DNA from: an uncultured Collinsella sp.
Lineage (GTDB): Bacteria > Actinomycetota > Coriobacteriia > Coriobacteriales > Coriobacteriaceae
Assembly (NCBI GenBank): GCA_949287065.1
Contig: CASEEV010000079.1
Location: forward strand, 1-35,623
Direction: 5' to 3'
Length of the DNA stretch: 35,623 nucleotides
Shown: positions 17,083 through 32,051 of the stretch, piece after piece
How the letters are laid out: each line of letters starts with the position of its first letter
Position numbering within the stretch: the first letter of the stretch is position 1
Position numbers and translations under genes: made by a program
Notes under the pieces: generated by a model
The model's input: the letters and a program-made list of their open reading frames with translations, nothing else
Databases searched by the model: none
What the model was told of the DNA's origin: nothing

Positions 17083-20197
<3,115 letters not shown>

Positions 20198-20202
20198 GGT
20201 GA

Positions 20203-20802
20203 CTACCTCCCTTTCGAGTCTTCAGCGTAGTCAAGCTGCATGAGGTAGAGGTTGTAGCGCTTCTTGTCGCGGCGGTCGCGCACCAAAACGATGCGCCAGA
20301 TGATGACCGCCTTGAGCACGATGAGAACTGCGAGCAACCCCATACCGATAGCGGAAGAAGAGAAGAACGGGAAGAACAGGTCCTTGCCCATGAACGCCGT
20401 CAGGGCAAGTTCCGCAAGCGAGCAAGCAACGGAGACCAGAAGCGTGCGATGCGAGACCTTGAGGTACTCGATATCGTGGGTGAGGACACGGTTGACCTCG
20501 AGCAGGACAACCAATCCCGTTGCGAAATCGACGATGGGGGCGATGAGCGCCGCCAGCGACGATCCCGTTGCAAAGAGCATCACGGTCCAATAGAGGCCGA
20601 TGAAGAACAGGCCCGAGTCGAGGTAGCGAATCAGCATGTAGCGATTCCACTTGGCCGTGGTAACCATCTGCTTGTGCTTGAACGCCTCTCGGTCGTCGGA
20701 GGGCCTCACCGCGCGCTTAGGCTGCCCTTTGAACTCCGCCTTGCGCTGCTCCTGGCTCGCGCGCTTGGCGCGCGCCTTCTCGATCTTCTGCTTCTTCTTC
20801 AC
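20203..20802 (-). CDS. Small membrane protein encoded between EIIB and EIIC
   Basis: I do not recognise this 199-residue protein. The first 45 residues are very basic (KKKQKIEKARAKRASQEQRK) and hydrophilic. Then come two hydrophobic hairpins (about residues 60-105 and 118-175), suggesting four membrane segments, and a basic C-terminal loop with RDRRDKKRYNLY. The start is a GTG; the ribosome site is weak (CAGG about 7 bp away). It sits 30 bp after the EIIB stop and 5 bp before the EIIC start, clearly inside the PTS operon. A role in assembly, stability or regulation of the EIIC permease is an inference from position only. Confidence 0.8.
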   Translation of the reverse strand: MKKKQKIEKARAKRASQEQRKAEFKGQPKRAVRPSDDREAFKHKQMVTTAKWNRYMLIRYLDSGLFFIGLYWTVMLFATGSSLAALIAPIVDFATGLVVLLEVNRVLTHDIEYLKVSHRTLLVSVACSLAELALTAFMGKDLFFPFFSSSAIGMGLLAVLIVLKAVIIWRIVLVRDRRDKKRYNLYLMQLDYAEDSKGR

Positions 20803-20832
20803 GCTTGAACCTGCTTATCCTTAGGAAACGGG

Positions 20833-21132
20833 TTAGCCGATCAGCTTGTGGATCTGGTCGAAGATCGCCGGGCAGTTCTGACGGCCGTAGTCCTTCATCG
20901 GGATGACGTCGACGGGCAGGCCCTGGGCCTTGGCGACGACCTTGTCCTTCTGATAGGAGATCTGCGGGCCAACGAGGATGACCTCGTAGCCGTCGTCGGC
21001 GGGATTCTTCAGCTCAGAGAAGCTGCGAGCGGCGATCTCGAGCTCGATGCCGTTCTCCTTGGCATAGGTATCCATCTTCTTCATGAGCATGCTGGTGGAC
21101 ATGCCGGCGGCGCAAACGAGCAGAACCTTCAT
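20833..21132 (-). CDS. celA: PTS EIIB component, lactose/cellobiose family
   Basis: This cytoplasmic protein passes phosphate from EIIA to the sugar on EIIC. It has 99 residues. The phosphorylated Cys7 lies in VLLVCAAGMSTSMLMKKM, the hallmark of the family, and VGPQISYQKDKV follows. AAAGGAG precedes the ATG at 21132; the longer frame upstream is the EIIA-EIIB spacer. EIIA lies 90 bp upstream, and a dyad GCGGGA/TCCCGC sits in that spacer. Confidence 0.94.
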   Translation of the reverse strand: MKVLLVCAAGMSTSMLMKKMDTYAKENGIELEIAARSFSELKNPADDGYEVILVGPQISYQKDKVVAKAQGLPVDVIPMKDYGRQNCPAIFDQIHKLIG

Positions 21133-21222
21133 TGCTAAACACTCCTTTGAAGTCGTGCGGGATTGGCTTCCCGCTCCCAAGGTAGAGGGGCCGGGCGCTT
21201 GGGACACCCGCCCCGCCAGACG

Positions 21223-21543
21223 TTATTTGTCTGCCTTGGTCTCGTACAGATTGATGATCTCCTCGGCCAGGTCCTGGCACAGCATGGCGGTCATCAGGTG
21301 GTCCTGCGAGTGGACCAGCAGGATGTCCACGGGTACGTGGTCACCGCCGGCCTCGCGGGAGAGCAGCTTGGTCTGCTCGTCATGAGCGGCGAGACCCGCC
21401 TCGCGGGACTCCTCCAGCATCTTGCGAGCGGCCTCGATGTCGCCCTCGCGGGCGGTCTTGATGGCCTCCATCGCCATGCTGCGAGCCTGACCGGCTGCGG
21501 CGACGATTCCGAACGAAATCATCTCCATGCTCTCTTCTGCCAT
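21223..21543 (-). CDS. celC: PTS EIIA component, lactose/cellobiose family
   Basis: This soluble trimer-forming protein receives phosphate from HPr. It has 106 residues, mostly helical, with the active histidine in LLVHSQDHLMTAM and the N-terminal ISFGIVAAAGQARS motif. The ATG at 21543 is preferred, with AGGAGG about 10 bp upstream; a TTG two codons earlier is the other option. It follows the regulator gene by 84 bp on the same strand with only a weak dyad between, so the regulator and the PTS genes may share a transcript. Confidence 0.93.
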   Translation of the reverse strand: MAEESMEMISFGIVAAAGQARSMAMEAIKTAREGDIEAARKMLEESREAGLAAHDEQTKLLSREAGGDHVPVDILLVHSQDHLMTAMLCQDLAEEIINLYETKADK

Positions 21544-21627
21544 ATGCAAAACACCTCCTCTAAAACCTTGCTCTCTCCTGCCTATCCATAAGGGCGGGCC
21601 GCACGCCCAACCCCATAGATACCTACA

Positions 21628-23646
21628 TCAGGCGCCTGACGCGGAACTCCCGTCCGCTTCGGCGGCCTCGTCCCGCCTTCCCTGCGCCTTTGCGAGAATC
21701 TCGGCGAGCGTCTCCCAGCTTTGGCGCTTCACGAGAAGCTCGATGGCATCGCGGTCCATGAGCACGCTTGCGAACGTGTCCATGAACTGGTGGAGGCTGC
21801 CGTCTTGCTCGGCGGCGAAGCCGAGGAGAAAGACCGCCTGAACCTCCTGGCCGTTGGTGTCCCACGCGACCGGATGGTCGAGCAGGCCCACGCAGATAAA
21901 CGTCTCGGAGCTCGCGGCTTCGAGCGGATGCGGAATGGCCACGTTGTTGCCGAATGAGGTCGAGATCATGGCCTCGCGCTTCCACACGAGCTCGCGGAAG
22001 TTGCGCGCGACCGGCTCGGAGGCGCACACCTGGTCGAGCAAAAAGTCGAGCGCGTCCTGCTTGCTCGTCTGCGTCATATGCGGGAAGAACAGCGAGGGCT
22101 TGAAGTACGAGGGCACCGGGCCGTATTCTCGCGCGCCGAGCAGCTCGCGCATCTCGACCACGTCCTCGTCGCCGAGGAAGTAGGTGACCTCGCGAACGGG
22201 AACCGGAAGCTTGCGATGGATCGGCACCGTGGTGAACACGTAGTCGACCTTGGAGAAATCGAAGGTCTCGAGGCCGAGAACGTCGCAGGTCATGACCTTG
22301 TCGACGTAGTCGGCAAACTCGCGACGGCAGCGGTACTCGAGCAGGCGTGCCGAGCCCGCGCCCGAGGCGCACACCACGAGGATGTTCTTCTTGGGTGCCT
22401 CGGTCTTCTGCCTCTCGAGGGCGAGCGCGAACGCGAGGGCGATGTAGCCCATCTCGTCCTCCGACAGGTCGGCGTCGTAAGCGCGCGCGAGCACCGTCGA
22501 GGCGTCGATGGCCATGGAGTACGCGAGCGCGTAGCGCGTCTTGATATCGGCGAGCAACGGGTTCTTGAGGTTCATGTGGTAGCGCAGGCGCACCGCCAAA
22601 GGCACGATGTGCCGCGCGAGGTTCATGCGCAGCTCGAGGTCGTTGCGGAAGTCGAAGCGGAAGGCGTTCCATACGCAGTCGAGCATCTCGGAGACCACGC
22701 GCCACACGCCGTCGGAGATCACGAGGCCCTCGTCTTCGGACGCGCCCGCGCCGAGCATGGTGCGCTTGCCGGCGAGATGGATCGCGATGTAGGCGATCTC
22801 CTCCTCGGGCAGCTGCACGCCCATCTCGCGGCTGATGGCGTCGGCGATCTTCTCGGCGACCTGGTACTCGCGCTGGCCCTTCATGCGCTCGAGGTGCTCG
22901 GTCTCCATGGGAACGTAGCAGTCCTCCTGGATGCGCACGAGCGCCACAGCTATGTGAATGAGCAGGTTCTGGTACGCCACGGCGTTGATCTGGAAGTTCT
23001 CGGCCACGGCAACGCTCTCGACGCAGTTGGAGATGGTGTCGAGCGTGGGGTTGTGGATGCCCACCTCGGAGCGGCGGCCGTAGTCCGAAAGCAGCGTGCT
23101 GATGGTGACGCCGGGGTCCGCCTCCGCCTCGGCGGCGCCGCTGAAGGCGTCCATGATGATGTTGGCGAGGCACAGCCTGCGGGCCATCTCGGAGCCGCTC
23201 ACGCGGATGCCGTAATGCGGGCGCATCTCGAGCGTGAGCCCGAAGCTCTCGAGCACGGACTGCACGCGCTTAAGGTCGTTGGAGATGGTGGAGCGCGATA
23301 CGAAGAGCACCTCGCGCAGATCGTCGAGGGTGATCCAGTCGGTGCGCATGAGCAGGTCGTTGAGCAGGTAGGACACGCGTGCCTGCGGCGTTTGCGGCAG
23401 GGCCTGCTTCTTCTCGCGGGAATCGGCGGTCCACGCCTCGTAGCGAGCCATGTCTTGAATCTCGAGATGGTAGCCGTTCTTGCGGCTCAGCTCGATACGG
23501 GCGAAGCCCTCCATGGCGCTGTTGGTCTGGTTCACATAGGTGCGGACGGTGCGAACACTCACATCGAGATGCTCGGCAACGCTTGTCGGCATCACGCCGG
23601 GATTTGCTTCAATGTACGCGGCAAGTACCGGTGCGTCTACACGCAT
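21628..23646 (-). CDS. PTS-regulated transcriptional activator (LicR/MtlR/ManR type, two PRDs with EIIB- and EIIA-like domains)
   Basis: This 672-residue regulator most likely activates the downstream PTS operon. In order: two winged helix-turn-helix domains (about 5-60 and 90-150), PRD1 (about 175-295) with His231 and His290, PRD2 (about 305-410) with His346, an EIIB-like domain with Cys426 in NILVVCASGAGSARLL, and an EIIA-like domain with His573 in NNVAIPHPLEA. In family members HPr and the EII proteins phosphorylate these sites to set activity. The second PRD2 histidine appears replaced: IALAFALALER where IALHF is usual. AAAGGGGG precedes the ATG at 23646; the upstream frame extension crosses the promoter region. 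Confidence 0.92.
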   Translation of the reverse strand: MRVDAPVLAAYIEANPGVMPTSVAEHLDVSVRTVRTYVNQTNSAMEGFARIELSRKNGYHLEIQDMARYEAWTADSREKKQALPQTPQARVSYLLNDLLMRTDWITLDDLREVLFVSRSTISNDLKRVQSVLESFGLTLEMRPHYGIRVSGSEMARRLCLANIIMDAFSGAAEAEADPGVTISTLLSDYGRRSEVGIHNPTLDTISNCVESVAVAENFQINAVAYQNLLIHIAVALVRIQEDCYVPMETEHLERMKGQREYQVAEKIADAISREMGVQLPEEEIAYIAIHLAGKRTMLGAGASEDEGLVISDGVWRVVSEMLDCVWNAFRFDFRNDLELRMNLARHIVPLAVRLRYHMNLKNPLLADIKTRYALAYSMAIDASTVLARAYDADLSEDEMGYIALAFALALERQKTEAPKKNILVVCASGAGSARLLEYRCRREFADYVDKVMTCDVLGLETFDFSKVDYVFTTVPIHRKLPVPVREVTYFLGDEDVVEMRELLGAREYGPVPSYFKPSLFFPHMTQTSKQDALDFLLDQVCASEPVARNFRELVWKREAMISTSFGNNVAIPHPLEAASSETFICVGLLDHPVAWDTNGQEVQAVFLLGFAAEQDGSLHQFMDTFASVLMDRDAIELLVKRQSWETLAEILAKAQGRRDEAAEADGSSASGA

Positions 23647-26357: not shown

Positions 26358-26735
26358 TCACCATATGCGGCGACGCGATTCCTTGCGCTCCGCACGCAGA
26401 TGCTTGGCAGCGAGGCGCTTCTCGTTAACATGACGGGGCACCTTGGTTTTGCGGCGCTTCTTGGGCACCCGCGATCGGCGCTCGAGAATGGCGCGGATCT
26501 TTTTGAGGCAGGTCTCTCGGTTGCGCAACTGACTGCGCGACTCGCGCGCCACCACCGTAACGCCCGTGGGACCGTGGGTCATCCGCACGGCCGAGTCGGT
26601 GGTGTTGACGCCCTGGCCGCCGGGGCCGGTAGCCCTAAAGACCTGCACCGTACAGGCGCGGTAGAGCTCGTCGTCGGTCTGGCGCGCGTACCGCGCGTAC
26701 TCGGCAGGCGTGAGCTTGCGGTCGCTTGCCGTCAT
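26358..26735 (-). CDS. Class I release-factor-like GGQ protein (ArfB/YaeJ-like)
   Basis: The 125-residue protein consists of the GGQ domain of class I release factors ([20 protein letters not shown], Gly39-Gln41) and a very basic C-terminal tail ([13 protein letters not shown]...KESRRRIW). It lacks the codon-recognition domains. This is the layout of ArfB, which enters stalled ribosomes lacking a codon in the A site and releases the peptide; whether this protein does so is inferred. The first 25 residues resemble a short helical extension. The ATG overlaps the upstream CobA-HemD stop (ATGA), and AGGGGGAG within that gene is its ribosome site. Confidence 0.85.
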
Positions 26736-28339
26736 TGCTCCCCCTTGCTGTCTGCGAGCGCGCGTACGCACGCATCGGCCAAATCGGACATGGTGGCGGC
26801 CGAGGCGGTGGTGCACATGAAGCCAGCAGCCTCCGCGGCTGCGCGCGTGGGCAGCCCGAGGCATACCGCCTTGCGCGGGGCGTGAGCGGGGTCCGCACCC
26901 GCGGCCGTAAGCGCTTGCGCAAAGCCCTTCACCGTCGAGGCACTCGTAAAGGTCACAAGGTCAATGGTTCCGGCAGAGAGCTTCTCGACAAGCTCGGCAG
27001 GCACCGGCTCGGGCGCCGTTACGCTGCGGTACGCCTCGACCTCCTCGTACGCCACCCCCGCCTCCTCGAGCGCACGCGGCAGCACAGGCGATCCCTCCGA
27101 CGAGCGGAAGAGCATGACACGGGCAGGAGACGCGCCCTTCTCCCCTGCTGCGAGACGAGCGAGACCCGCGCCGAGATGAGCGCTGTCGTAAACCTCCGGC
27201 ACGTAGTCGGCACGGACGGCAAGCTCGCGCTCGAGGGCCGCGGCGGTTGCCGGGCCGATAGCGGCTACGCGCACGCCTGCAAGCGCACGGGCGTCGAGGC
27301 CGGCAGCGCGCACACCGCGCGCCAGGCACCGCGCGCCAAAGGGACTTGTGAGCGCAAGCCAACCGCAGGAACCGATGCGTCGCACAACCGAGGCAAGATC
27401 CTCGTCGGCGGCAGTGTACATCTCGACACACGGAAAGCAGAGCACCTCTGCCCCGAGGCGCGCGAGCTTCTCGGCCAGGCCTGCCGCACGGTCGCGCGGA
27501 CGCGTGACCAGAATCGTTTTGCCTCGCAGCGGGAGCCGGTCGTACCAAGCGAGCTCGGGGTCGAGCCCCGCCACGGCGCCCACCACAAGAACCGCGGGGC
27601 TCTGGATGCTTGTCTGCCGCGCCTTGCGCGCGATACCGACGACCGCGCCGCGCACCGTCCGCTGCCGCGCCGTGGTGCCCCGCTCGACAACAGCTGCAGG
27701 CGTGTCAGCCGGCATGCCCGCCGCGAGCAGGCCTGCGCAGATCTCGCCGAGCGTTGCGACCGCCATGAGAAAGACGAGCGTACCGCCTGCCTGCACGAGG
27801 GCGCCGAAGTCGATGTCGAGCGCACCGTTTTGTTGCCGATGACCGGTCACCACGTGCACCGAGGCCGCGGCGCGCCGATCGGTAACCGGAATGCCCGCAT
27901 AGGACGGAGCGGCAAACGCGCTGGTAATACCCGGTACGACCTCGAAGGGAACGCCGCGTTGAGCGAGATAGCTCGCCTCCTCGCCGCCCCGGCCAAAAAG
28001 ATACGGGTCGCCGCCTTTGAGACGAACCACCAAACCGCCCGCGCCGACGCGGCGGGCCTCCTCGACAAGGATCTCGTTGATGCGATGCTGCGGAACGGGA
28101 TGGCTCCCCTGCCGCTTTCCAACATCAATACGGCGCGCACGCACGGCAAGCTCCACGAGCTCAGATGCTACGAGCCGGTCGTACACCACGGCGTCGGCGC
28201 GGCAGAGAAGCTCCCGCCCCCGCACCGTAATAAGCCCCGGGTCTCCGGGGCCGGCACCCACGAGCGCCACGAGAGCGCAGCCGCCCCGTGCTTCTCCGGC
28301 AGCCTCCCCGGGCGCGCCTGCGCTTCTCGTCTCGTCCAT
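26732..28339 (-). CDS. cobA-hemD: Uroporphyrinogen-III C-methyltransferase/uroporphyrinogen-III synthase fusion (CobA-HemD)
   Basis: This 535-residue bifunctional enzyme closes hydroxymethylbilane to uroporphyrinogen III (HemD) and methylates it twice with S-adenosylmethionine to precorrin-2 (CobA/SUMT). The N-terminal half has [37 protein letters not shown] and [20 protein letters not shown], all SUMT signatures. The HemD half starts near residue 285 ([19 protein letters not shown]) and includes [13 protein letters not shown] and [26 protein letters not shown] precedes the ATG at 28339; the frame is open further upstream into the palindromic repeats. It supplies precorrin-2 for siroheme, matching the adjacent reductase and the Met8-like gene. 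Confidence 0.93.
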
Positions 28340-28680: not shown

Positions 28681-31275
28681 TTAGCAGGTAGCGCCGCCGA
28701 CGACGGTCTTGCTGAGAATGGCGTCCTTGTCGATGGGGGCAGTAAGGAGCTTCTCCTCAACGTAGTCGAAGCCGAGACGCGCCACCGTGTCGGCAAAGCG
28801 CTCGCCCGAGATACCCTCGTCGCGGAAGAAGAGAATGGCGCGCTCCACGACGTCCATGACCTCTTCCTCGCTCGTAAAGACCTTGCCCAGCGCCTGGCCG
28901 TGCGCCGTCTTTTTGCCCCAGCGGCCGCCGATGTAGACCTTGTAGCCCACCTGCGACTCGGTCACGGCGCCAAAGGGGCAGGTGCCGATGCAGCGCCCGC
29001 AATGGTTGCAGAGCTCCTCGGCGATGCGGATCTTGCCGTCGGCGCCGATCTGCGCGTCGCCCATGGGGCAGGAATTCACAACCTGGCAGACCTTGCAGCC
29101 GCGGCACTTGGCCGCGCCGATCTCGGGAATGCGCTGGCCAACGATGCCCAGGTCGTTGAGGTCGGGCTTGACGCACATGTTGGGGCAGCCGCCCACGGCG
29201 ATCTTGAACTTGTGCGGCAGCTCCACGCCGTGGTAGCCCACGTAGAAGCGCTGATGCAGCTTCTCCGAGAGCGCGAACGTGTCGATGAGGCCGTACTGGC
29301 AGGTGGTGCCCTTGCAACTCACTACCGGGCGCACCTTAGAGCCGGTGCCGCCGGCGTCGAGGCCGGCGTCCTGCAAAAAGCCGATGCACGCCTCGATCTG
29401 GTCGTACTTCACGCCCTGGATCTCGAGCGTGAGGCGCGTGGTCATCGTGACCTCGCCGGAACCGAACTTCTCGCTCGCCTCGGCCACGACCTTCTGCTCG
29501 GCGGCGGTGAGCTTGCCGTTGCGCGTGATCACGCGGACGTTGAAGACGTCGTCAAAGCGCTTGTCCTGCAAACAGCCCAGACCCTTCAGGCGCTTGATCT
29601 CGGCGGCGGGCAGTTTCTTGCCAGCGGGCCGCGGCACGCGGACCTCGTTGAAGGTGGCGCCTCCCTCGAGCACGCGCGTGGCGGTGTAGCCTGCCGCCTT
29701 GAGGCGGTTCTGGGCAAAGTAGCCGCGCTTGCCCTTGGCGCACACGAGCAGCAGCTTGGCATCGCGCGGGATGCCCTCGATGCCGTTCTCGTCAATGCTC
29801 GCGAGGTTGACCCAGCGCGCGCCGGGGATCGTCGGCTCGGGAAGCACGTCGATAACCTCGTAGTCGCGCGCAGCGCCGGCGGCGTACTCCGCCGGCGTGA
29901 AGGTCTCGAACCGGCCCTCGACCTTGTTCTCGAGGATGTAGCACGCCGTCACGAGCGGATGGATGGCCGTGGAGAAGGGCGGCGCGTAGGCGAAGTCCAT
30001 GAGGTCGAGGTCGCCCAGCTTGAGGCCCTGGTAGAGAGCCACAACCATGACGTCGACGACCTTGTCGACCGCGCCCGAGCCGAAGAGCTGGACGCCGAGA
30101 AGCTTGCGCGTGGGACGGTCGGCCACGAGCTTGATGAAGAAGCTCGAGGCGCCCGGGTAGTAGTGCGCCTTGTCGTCGACGACGCAGGTGGCGCTCACCG
30201 GGTCATAGCCCGCCGCGCGCGCCGCCTCCTCGGTGAGGCCGGTGCGGCCGCCGTTGAGCGAGCCGGTGAGCCTGACCACGCCGGTTCCGAGCACACCGGG
30301 GTACGGCGTCGGCGTGCCCGTGAGCGTCTTGGCGAGCGCGCGGGCGCTGATGTTGGCGGTCGAGCCCATGGCGCTCCACTGCAAAGCGCCCGTGAAGGCG
30401 TTTTTGACCTCGGCGCAGTCGCCGGCGGCGTACACATCGGGGAGGTTGGTCTTGAGATACTCGTCCACCAAGATGGTGCCCTTGAGCATCTCGATCCCCG
30501 AGCCCTCGAGCCACTCCGTGGCAGGGCGGATGCCGATGGCGAGAATCACCAGGTCGGCGGGCAGCGTGCCGTTGGGCGTGACCACGGCGGCGGCGCGCCC
30601 GGCGGCGGCGCCCTCGCCCGGAAGGATAGCCTCGAGCGGCGTGGACGTCAGGACGCGCATGCCCGCCGCCTTGAGCTGCTTCTTGGCCCAGTCGGCCATC
30701 TCGGGATCAAAGACGTTCGGCATGACCTGCGACGCAGCGTCGATCACCGTGACCGAGAGGCCGCGCGCGGAGAGGTTCTCGGCAACCTCGAGGCCGATGA
30801 AGCCCGCGCCCACCACGACCGCGCGCCGGCAGCCGTTGGCATCGGCGTACGCGCGGATGCCCTCGGCGTCGTCGGGCGTGCGCACGCAAAAGACGCCCTC
30901 GAGGTCGCGCCCCTCGATGGGCGGGACAAACGGCGCGGCGCCCGTGGCTATGACAAGCTTGTCATAGCCCTCGGTGCCCGCAGAGCCGTCTGCCCGGCGC
31001 ACCGAGACCGTCTTGACTCCGGCGTCGAGCGCCGTGGCCTCGACGCCGGTCTCAACGTGCACGCCCGTAAGACCCTCGTACTTGGCGGGCGTGTTGACGA
31101 TAAGCTCGTCGCGCGTCTCGATGCCTCCGCCGATGTAGTACGGCAGGCCGCAGCCCGCGTACGATATGTCCTGATCGCGCGTAATGACGCGCACGTCTGC
31201 CGAACGGTCGCAGCGCTTGATTTTGGCGGCAGCCTTGGTGCCGGCAGCAACGCCGCCGACGATGAGGTACCTCAT
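28681..31275 (-). CDS. Fusion: CoA-disulfide-reductase-like flavoprotein, rhodanese, siroheme sulfite/nitrite reductase, ferredoxin
   Basis: One 864-residue frame holds four modules. Residues 1-450: an FAD/NAD(P) disulfide reductase of the CoA-disulfide-reductase type, with IVGGVAAGTKAAAK and Cys42 in SYAGCGLPYYIGG. Residues about 465-550: a rhodanese domain with Cys512 (LLLVCAKGKRGY). Residues about 570-715: a sulfite/nitrite reductase unit with Cys654, Cys659, Cys697 and Cys701 for the siroheme-iron-sulfur centre. Residues 720-770: two 4Fe-4S ferredoxin motifs (Cys724/727/730/736 and 756/759/762/766). Electrons could run from NAD(P)H through FAD and iron-sulfur clusters to siroheme, reducing sulfite or nitrite. 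GGGGAGG precedes the ATG. Soluble, no signal peptide. Confidence 0.9.
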   Translation of the reverse strand: MRYLIVGGVAAGTKAAAKIKRCDRSADVRVITRDQDISYAGCGLPYYIGGGIETRDELIVNTPAKYEGLTGVHVETGVEATALDAGVKTVSVRRADGSAGTEGYDKLVIATGAAPFVPPIEGRDLEGVFCVRTPDDAEGIRAYADANGCRRAVVVGAGFIGLEVAENLSARGLSVTVIDAASQVMPNVFDPEMADWAKKQLKAAGMRVLTSTPLEAILPGEGAAAGRAAAVVTPNGTLPADLVILAIGIRPATEWLEGSGIEMLKGTILVDEYLKTNLPDVYAAGDCAEVKNAFTGALQWSAMGSTANISARALAKTLTGTPTPYPGVLGTGVVRLTGSLNGGRTGLTEEAARAAGYDPVSATCVVDDKAHYYPGASSFFIKLVADRPTRKLLGVQLFGSGAVDKVVDVMVVALYQGLKLGDLDLMDFAYAPPFSTAIHPLVTACYILENKVEGRFETFTPAEYAAGAARDYEVIDVLPEPTIPGARWVNLASIDENGIEGIPRDAKLLLVCAKGKRGYFAQNRLKAAGYTATRVLEGGATFNEVRVPRPAGKKLPAAEIKRLKGLGCLQDKRFDDVFNVRVITRNGKLTAAEQKVVAEASEKFGSGEVTMTTRLTLEIQGVKYDQIEACIGFLQDAGLDAGGTGSKVRPVVSCKGTTCQYGLIDTFALSEKLHQRFYVGYHGVELPHKFKIAVGGCPNMCVKPDLNDLGIVGQRIPEIGAAKCRGCKVCQVVNSCPMGDAQIGADGKIRIAEELCNHCGRCIGTCPFGAVTESQVGYKVYIGGRWGKKTAHGQALGKVFTSEEEVMDVVERAILFFRDEGISGERFADTVARLGFDYVEEKLLTAPIDKDAILSKTVVGGATC

Positions 31276-31282
31276 AGTTCCT

Positions 31283-31330
31283 CCCCTTCTGTAGGGCGAG
31301 AAGCACCGGGGCGCGCCCCCCGAGCTTCTC
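31283..31330 (-). promoter_or_regulatory. Leader hairpin before the reductase fusion gene
   Basis: On the - strand GAGAAGC and GCTTCTC enclose GGGG/CCCC around a GC-rich loop. It lies between a -10-like TATGAT (about 31345-31350) and the ribosome site. No T-tract follows, so it would affect translation or stability more than termination. Confidence 0.35.
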
Positions 31331-31434
31331 TGGCGATACTCTCATCATAGCCGTTTTGCTCGCAGCTGAGCCACGGTGCCCACCCGAGGCACCGCCGCCG
31401 CCCGATGCGCAAAGCTCCTCTCCTGGTGCATACT

Positions 31435-31470
31435 TACGAGAAGAGCCGGCCGTACGAGAAGAGCCGCAAC
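31435..31470. repeat. 18-bp tandem direct repeat before the precorrin-2 dehydrogenase gene
   Basis: TACGAGAAGAGCCG occurs at 31435-31448 and 31453-31466, 18 bp apart, ending 18 bp before the GTG start and abutting the ribosome site. It could be a binding site for a regulator of siroheme genes or only a local duplication. Confidence 0.6.
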
Positions 31471-31484
31471 TAAGGGAGGGCGCC

Positions 31485-32051
31485 GTGGGAGCAGCACGCG
31501 AACCGCAAAGCCAGCATGCGCCGAACCTGGCACAGGGCGGAGAAGTACCCTCAGCAGCAGGAACTTCGTCCGAGGCAGCGCAGCAGCCGCAGGCAACAGC
31601 CGTGCCGCGCTTCCCGTTGTTCGTGGACCTCACGGGCGCCGACTGTCTCGTGGTGGGCGCGGGCGCCGTCGGATCGCGTCGGGCAGCGGTTCTCGCCCGC
31701 TACGGTGCGCGCGTGACCGTGATCGACCCGGCGGCGCCAACGTGCGAGGTGGCGGCGGAACTTCTCGCACGGGCGTACGAACCGGGAGACGAGCGCGGGC
31801 GCACCCTCGTGGTGGCCGCCACTAACAACCGCGCGGTAAACCGCCTCATAGGCGAGACGTGCCGGGCCGCGGGCGTGCCCGTGTCGGTTGCCGACGCGCC
31901 CGAGGAGTGCGCGTTCTTCTTTCCGGCGGTGTGCGCCACGGAGCACCTGAGCGCAGGCGTGGTCTCTACCGGAGCGGAGCACGCGCTCACGGCACGCGCC
32001 GCCGCTGCCGTGCGCCAGACCCTTGCCGCCTGCGAGCGCGCCGAAGCCTAA
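31485..32051 (+). CDS. Precorrin-2 dehydrogenase/sirohydrochlorin ferrochelatase (Met8/CysG N-terminal type)
   Basis: The enzyme oxidises precorrin-2 to sirohydrochlorin with NAD and, in family members, may insert iron to give siroheme. The 188-residue protein has the dinucleotide fold VDLTGADCLVVGAGAVGSRRAAVLARYGARVTVID in outline (glycines of GAGAVG about 55-60), then VAATNNRAVNRLI and CAFFFPAV. It corresponds to the N-terminal module of CysG. The GTG at 31485 is chosen because AAGGGAGG lies 5 bp upstream; the frame is open to 31356. The first 40 residues are a low-complexity Gln/Ala/Pro-rich extension. It is divergent from the reductase fusion and convergent with the Nudix gene (10-bp gap). 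Confidence 0.88.
   Translation: MGAAREPQSQHAPNLAQGGEVPSAAGTSSEAAQQPQATAVPRFPLFVDLTGADCLVVGAGAVGSRRAAVLARYGARVTVIDPAAPTCEVAAELLARAYEPGDERGRTLVVAATNNRAVNRLIGETCRAAGVPVSVADAPEECAFFFPAVCATEHLSAGVVSTGAEHALTARAAAAVRQTLAACERAEA

Follow-up and report, generated by a model that had tools for sequence, protein, structure and literature searches.

A fused flavin-rhodanese-siroheme reductase gene in Collinsella

The window, by which we mean the whole 35,623-nucleotide stretch of an uncultured Collinsella sp. contig analysed here, carries on its minus strand (28681..31275) an open reading frame that starts with ATG and encodes a fused flavin-rhodanese-siroheme reductase of 864 amino acids. The modules of this chain follow in the order CoA-disulfide/persulfide reductase, rhodanese, and siroheme reductase of the Fsr/AsrC/Dsr type with two ferredoxin clusters. 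The initial annotation had placed them in a single chain of this length, and its coordinates were exact, with only the strand missing. Pfam recognised Pyr_redox_2 at residues 2-291 (8e-60), Pyr_redox_dim at 343-439, a rhodanese domain at 474-539 whose match was weak (8e-5) yet above the curated cut-off, NIR_SIR_ferr at 577-631, NIR_SIR at 645-843 (2e-29) and Fer4 at about 719-772. An AlphaFold model of the full chain had a mean pLDDT of 86, and its top PDB matches were persulfide reductases.

The open reading frame is neither an assembly chimera nor a chance product: there are hundreds of related loci, and the architecture is kept full length, in the same domain order, by 88 distinct homologues from two phyla in which all of the cysteines checked are invariant. 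More broadly, all checked catalytic residues were invariant across 85-88 distinct fused proteins, so the catalytic residues expected of each module (C42, C512, the siroheme cysteines and R581/R649/K689/K691) are both present and conserved. Our search of the literature (openly licensed PMC full texts) found no published description of the fusion.

The flavin and rhodanese modules

Residues 1-445 (29941..31275, minus strand) form an FAD module of the CoA-disulfide/persulfide-reductase type, as identified by Pfam and by the structures 6pfz, 8a56 and 3icr. Its redox-active cysteine, C42, is kept in 88 of 88 sequences, and YY372-373 and the FAYAPPFS motif are also conserved. The rhodanese module follows at about residues 460-545 (29641..29898, minus strand; PF00581) and aligns with the rhodanese domains of EfCoAPR and AfNpsr; its active loop, CAKGKR, contains C512, which is again present in 88/88. 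When residues 2-542 were compared with the PDB, the best matches were Archaeoglobus fulgidus Npsr (6pfz), Enterococcus faecalis CoA-persulfide reductase (8a56) and Bacillus anthracis CoADR-RHD. The E. faecalis enzyme needs two cysteines (PMC9405070), and in the alignment C42 and C512 are the counterparts of both.

This half thus has the FAD/NAD(P) fold, active cysteine (Cys42) and dimerisation domain of a CoA-disulfide/persulfide reductase, together with the C-terminal rhodanese (PF00581, invariant C512) of the rhodanese-bearing type. Nevertheless, it scored below the NCBIfam cut-offs for CoA-disulfide reductases (TIGR03385, 353 bits against 579; NF007123, 354 against 458). The three known proteins (CoAPR 8a56, Npsr 6pfz and CoADR-RHD 3icr) have the FAD module and rhodanese in the same order and with both cysteines, at about 35% identity over some 545 residues, and the siroheme/ferredoxin module, roughly 310 residues long, and the C-terminal cysteine set the fusion apart from them.

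The siroheme module and its ferredoxin insert

The remainder of the chain, from about residue 560 to 864 (28684..29598, minus strand), is a siroheme sulfite-reductase module. Against the PDB, the last 300 residues matched F420-dependent sulfite reductases best (Fsr; 7npa, E=6e-35), with DsrAB and plant nitrite reductases ranking lower. The fold agrees with membership of the siroheme sulfite reductase family: the AlphaFold model of this domain (pLDDT 89.6) gave in Foldseek a TM score of 0.75 to Fsr, the best match, followed by DsrAB at 0.65-0.70. The cysteines that would hold the siroheme-4Fe4S centre, C654/659/697/701 (CX4C...CX3C), are invariant in 88 distinct sequences. In MjFsr, sulfite is bound by R355, R423, K460 and K462 (PMC10229431); the corresponding residues here, R581, R649, K689 and K691, are invariant in 49 rows of an alignment that includes distant relatives. 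The module thus carries both the cysteine signature and the four sulfite-binding Arg/Lys residues of a siroheme sulfite reductase.

Inserted within it, at residues 721-772 (28960..29115, minus strand; Pfam Fer4), is a ferredoxin domain with two 4Fe-4S motifs, C724/727/730/736 and C756/759/762/766, all eight cysteines of which are invariant in the 88 distinct sequences. The two motifs noted initially are thus of the ferredoxin type, and the siroheme-bridged cluster is a third.

The siroheme domain is under purifying selection, with dN/dS about 0.14: across 18 Atopobiaceae genes the median was 0.138, compared with 0.253 for the rest of the protein (the flavin half), and the cofactor and sulfite residues were all invariant.

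By curated cut-offs this module, too, falls outside the named families. AsrC was the best NCBIfam model, but TIGR02912 gave 100.7 bits against a cut-off of 324.1, and the NirB model TIGR02374 gave 233 bits against 578. Related to both the siroheme reductases and the CoA-persulfide reductases already known, the fusion is a variant of them and by these cut-offs a member of neither. Group I Fsr (7npa, 7np8) resembles it in the siroheme domain, the inserted two-cluster ferredoxin and the four sulfite-binding residues, and also in having electron donor and sulfite reductase in one chain. However, Fsr aligns with residues 572-842 only, at about 27% identity; its donor is an F420H2 oxidase with an N-terminal ferredoxin, whereas the N-terminal half of the fusion is of the CoADR type, an NAD(P)H flavoprotein with a rhodanese. 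AsrC, Dsr-like proteins and DsrAB share the siroheme family, but the fused donor module belongs to the fusion and not to AsrC. NirB likewise unites FAD and siroheme modules in a single chain; it is not known to have a rhodanese, and the fusion differs from it by its dimerisation-domain CoADR and its Dsr-type ferredoxin insert.

A C-terminal cysteine that travels with the flavin partner

The chain ends in a GGATC tail (28684..28698, minus strand) whose last residue is C864. The tail is conserved in 88/88 sequences and predicted to be flexible (AlphaFold pLDDT 44). It is common to the fused forms and to a split form described below (locus L181), and absent from three standalone siroheme homologues. 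Since the terminal cysteine travels with the flavin partner, its distribution suggests that it may visit the flavin or rhodanese site. A second candidate for a fusion-specific cysteine, C568, was rejected, being Phe in the fused protein of L188 and in the split L181, and Cys in the standalone protein of L183.

Distribution and history of the fusion

Full-length fusions were present in 35 of 298 sampled Coriobacteriia genomes, the window's own included. A scan of one genome per species returned 442 related stretches, the best 80 of which were all full length and came from Collinsella, Olsenella, Thermophilibacter, Blautia, Dorea, Schaedlerella, Sporofaciens, Pseudoflavonifractor and Eubacterium plexicaudatum. 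The hosts among these 80 are mostly animal-gut organisms, and the link to the gut drawn in the initial annotation is borne out by the carrier taxa (Collinsella, Olsenella, Lachnospiraceae).

In a tree of the siroheme domain, standalone siroheme proteins lie outside, followed by the split form and then by all fused forms as one group (96/90), although the deepest joins are less certain because the tree program flagged the long branches of the outgroup. The Coriobacteriia make up one clade (100/99). As this clade sits inside Bacillota lineages, the fusion was likely transferred from Bacillota into Coriobacteriia. The split form occurs in a Bacillota genome (G398), where a CoADR-rhodanese gene ends 30 bases before the siroheme gene. 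Together, this adjacent pair and the single well-supported fused clade indicate that the flavin-rhodanese and siroheme halves work together.

Genes for siroheme assembly around the fusion

Neighbouring genes were called with a codon-usage model, because plain longest-ORF calling picks antisense frames in these high-GC loci. Within the window the fusion is flanked, one on each side, by a CobA-HemD fusion (uroporphyrinogen-III methyltransferase and synthase; 26732..28270, minus strand; TIGR01469, 281 bits against a cut-off of 185) and by a SirC-like precorrin-2 dehydrogenase represented by its NAD-binding part only (31602..32051, plus strand; TIGR01470, 77.7 bits against 62.3). The CobA-HemD frame could be extended to 28477, and its product would serve the upstream siroheme steps. 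The SirC-like part is preceded, within 31278-32051 on the plus strand, by a Pro/Ala-rich stretch where some relatives carry an in-frame CbiK domain; the CbiK part of the window's frame appears to have been lost. A CbiK-SirC fusion protein is the neighbour in some Collinsella loci (L035, L040 and L048). In Olsenella and Thermophilibacter the neighbours are a CbiK-like protein and a NifX-like protein, and all 20 Atopobiaceae carriers have CbiK-like matches on the same contig, close to the fusion. Two conserved histidines are kept in every CbiK-like copy that spans them, although chelatase function is less sure in some Atopobiaceae because CbiK scores are weak, with L054 (from Thermophilibacter provencensis) and G189 below the Pfam cut-off. 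Siroheme as the cofactor is supported by these nearby assembly genes, which are SirC and CobA-HemD within the window and CbiK in relatives.

Other neighbours vary by lineage. The NifX-like protein (PF02579; 113-120 amino acids) is encoded upstream of the fusion in 20 of the 30 Coriobacteriia loci, in Atopobiaceae (for example L044:5446-5808, minus strand), and a DUF134-NifX protein lies upstream in one Lachnospiraceae-type locus (L097). In about 16 Lachnospiraceae loci a divergent LysR gene is found upstream, with the selenium-metabolism LysR as its best NCBIfam match and YeiE as the second; YeiE is sulfite-binding (PMC12880088). Several Lachnospiraceae loci (L080, L081, L100, L106, L109 and L110) have upstream an Rrf2 regulator and/or the cysteine desulfurase IscS with an IscU-type scaffold.

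Carriers with an eroded siroheme pathway

We examined the siroheme pathway by profile searches of the draft genomes of the 35 Coriobacteriia carriers, which are all at least 90% complete and some of which are in one to three contigs; absences refer to these searches, which covered HemB, HemC, CobA, SirC and, among chelatases, CbiK. HemB (PF00490) was found in none of the 35, but was detected in 11 of 14 controls and in the Bacillota carrier G301. HemC was detected in four (G116, G050, G263 and G283), and CobA methyltransferase in two of the ten tested; in the Bacillota carriers tested both HemC and CobA were present. SirC was found in 15 of the 35, comprising 13 of 15 Coriobacteriaceae and 2 of 20 Atopobiaceae, and no genome among the sampled Coriobacteriaceae had SirC without the fusion. 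Of the pathway, most Atopobiaceae carriers retain just the CbiK-like chelatase next to the fusion. A second, high-scoring CbiK (E ~1e-76 to 1e-79), seen mostly in fusion-free Coriobacteriaceae (G076, G100, G108, G132, G140, G142, G144, G150, G048 and G018), is another gene than the fusion-linked CbiK-like one.

This pattern looks like a stepwise loss of the upstream siroheme pathway while the siroheme enzyme stays. Maintenance of the enzyme where synthesis of its cofactor has eroded suggests tetrapyrrole salvage, and the Coriobacteriia carriers probably take up siroheme or a late precursor instead of making it de novo, many of them probably depending on neighbours for it. In the window's genome CobA-HemD and SirC were present, and profile searches found no HemB, HemC or CbiK, so that this organism apparently obtains siroheme, or a precursor, from outside.

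The source of sulfite was considered in the same genome (G000), where the PAPS/APS reductase CysH (PF01507) had no match and 14 of 14 controls were positive. Since this genome lacks PAPS reductase, the classical sulfate route would not supply the sulfite; sulfite or thiosulfate is probably drawn from outside or from organic sulfur. The absence of CysH also rules out a classical assimilatory sulfite reductase in the window's genome, although more distant relatives (about 36%) do occupy CysND/CysH sulfate-assimilation operons. Thus the description of the protein as a self-contained machine does not hold, as the genome lacks both CysH for sulfite and HemB, HemC and CbiK for siroheme.

Siroheme homologues of about 36-38% identity lie, in several Clostridia (L185-L192), beside CysND, CysH, ThiF-like, JAMM-like and homocysteine-synthase-like genes (named by sight), possibly a sulfur-carrier-linked sulfate assimilation operon.

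A proposed route from NAD(P)H to sulfide

From the domain identities and the conservation of residues we infer an NAD(P)H-FAD-Fe/S-siroheme route, a thiosulfate step and a role for C864. NAD(P)H would reduce FAD, whose electrons could then take two branches: to C42, which would reduce a persulfide carried on CoA or C864 to H2S, and across the pair of ferredoxin-type clusters to the siroheme-4Fe4S centre, where six electrons would reduce sulfite to H2S. The rhodanese would accept sulfane sulfur at C512, and the persulfide would pass from C512 to C42 on CoA or on C864; CoA has been argued to be the persulfide carrier of E. faecalis CoAPR (PMC9405070). If C512 cleaves thiosulfate, the siroheme could receive the sulfite and C42 the persulfide, and a single chain could then carry thiosulfate all the way to two sulfides. 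Such a scheme would explain why a persulfide reductase, a rhodanese and a sulfite reductase are joined. Similar chemistry has been proposed for thiosulfate reduction in Halanaerobium by a rhodanese and AsrABC, the rhodanese cleaving thiosulfate and the siroheme enzyme reducing sulfite (PMC5497025), but there by separate proteins, whereas the fusion has one chain that also includes a persulfide reductase.

Electron flow from NAD(P)H to sulfite, combined with an entry point for sulfane sulfur, is plausible, and on balance we lean towards reading the protein as a soluble sulfite reductase that depends on NAD(P)H, produces sulfide and has sulfane-sulfur entry built in. Several observations weigh against this reading. 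The rhodanese is short and its Pfam score weak, and most Coriobacteriia carriers are without most siroheme-synthesis genes. In addition, to our knowledge electrons in CoA-persulfide reductases go to C42 only, and we know of none with an Fe-S partner. NAD(P)H may not be the siroheme donor, because the standalone proteins from which the siroheme module descends probably take their electrons from ferredoxin.

In the main rival, two activities merely share a chain for co-expression or channelling, a CoA-persulfide reductase with rhodanese removing sulfane sulfur and a ferredoxin-dependent sulfite reductase, with no electron flow from flavin to siroheme. Standalone siroheme homologues do occur without a flavin partner, the families of the fusion carriers commonly have CoADR-Rhd proteins on their own, and the ferredoxin-type clusters could take electrons from ferredoxin. 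However, the invariant terminal cysteine is confined to flavin-linked forms, and the fusion is one clade that was kept through inter-phylum transfer. We regard this arrangement as rather unlikely.

It is less probable still that the siroheme centre acts physiologically on something other than sulfite, be it nitrite or a sulfur species bound to protein or CoA, with the C-terminal cysteine as a DsrC-like sulfur acceptor. The terminal thiol is indeed invariant and predicted to be flexible, and siroheme reductases often reduce nitrite as well. Fsr itself is reported to have nitrite reductase activity (PMC10202398). Against this, all four residues of the group I Fsr sulfite site are retained, and with sulfur modules attached the protein is unlikely to act mainly on nitrite. 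Finally, the C-terminal module might be a relic wherever siroheme synthesis is missing, leaving persulfide reduction alone. This would fit the lack of HemB in 35/35 and of HemC in 31/35 Coriobacteriia carriers, but is very improbable given that the siroheme domain is under tighter constraint than the flavin half, that its cofactor and sulfite residues are invariant and that a CbiK-like chelatase with both histidines conserved stays beside the fusion.

A possible shared cofactor in the gut

We tentatively put forward a wider picture that, as a whole, we consider possible but short of probable. Gut Coriobacteriia, having lost ring synthesis, would import siroheme or a late precursor (sirohydrochlorin or precorrin-2) from neighbours and finish it with the adjacent CbiK or CbiK-SirC, siroheme being a shared gut cofactor, and the enzyme may be a single-chain thiosulfate-to-sulfide reductase with a swinging C-terminal cysteine. 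The salvage is the most interesting point: if right, sulfide production in the carriers depends on a cofactor from other microbes, for which we found no earlier proposal in the searchable literature and which could be tested directly in culture. The fusion, which joins persulfide and sulfite reduction in one chain, would be an unrecognised, widely distributed sulfide-forming enzyme in common gut bacteria (Collinsella, Olsenella, Lachnospiraceae), and surveys that use AsrC or DsrAB cut-offs would miss it.

Elsewhere in the window, 17083-23535 on the minus strand holds an ordinary cellobiose-type PTS set, with a 6-phospho-beta-glucosidase, an EIIC and an antiterminator-like regulator with PTS domains.
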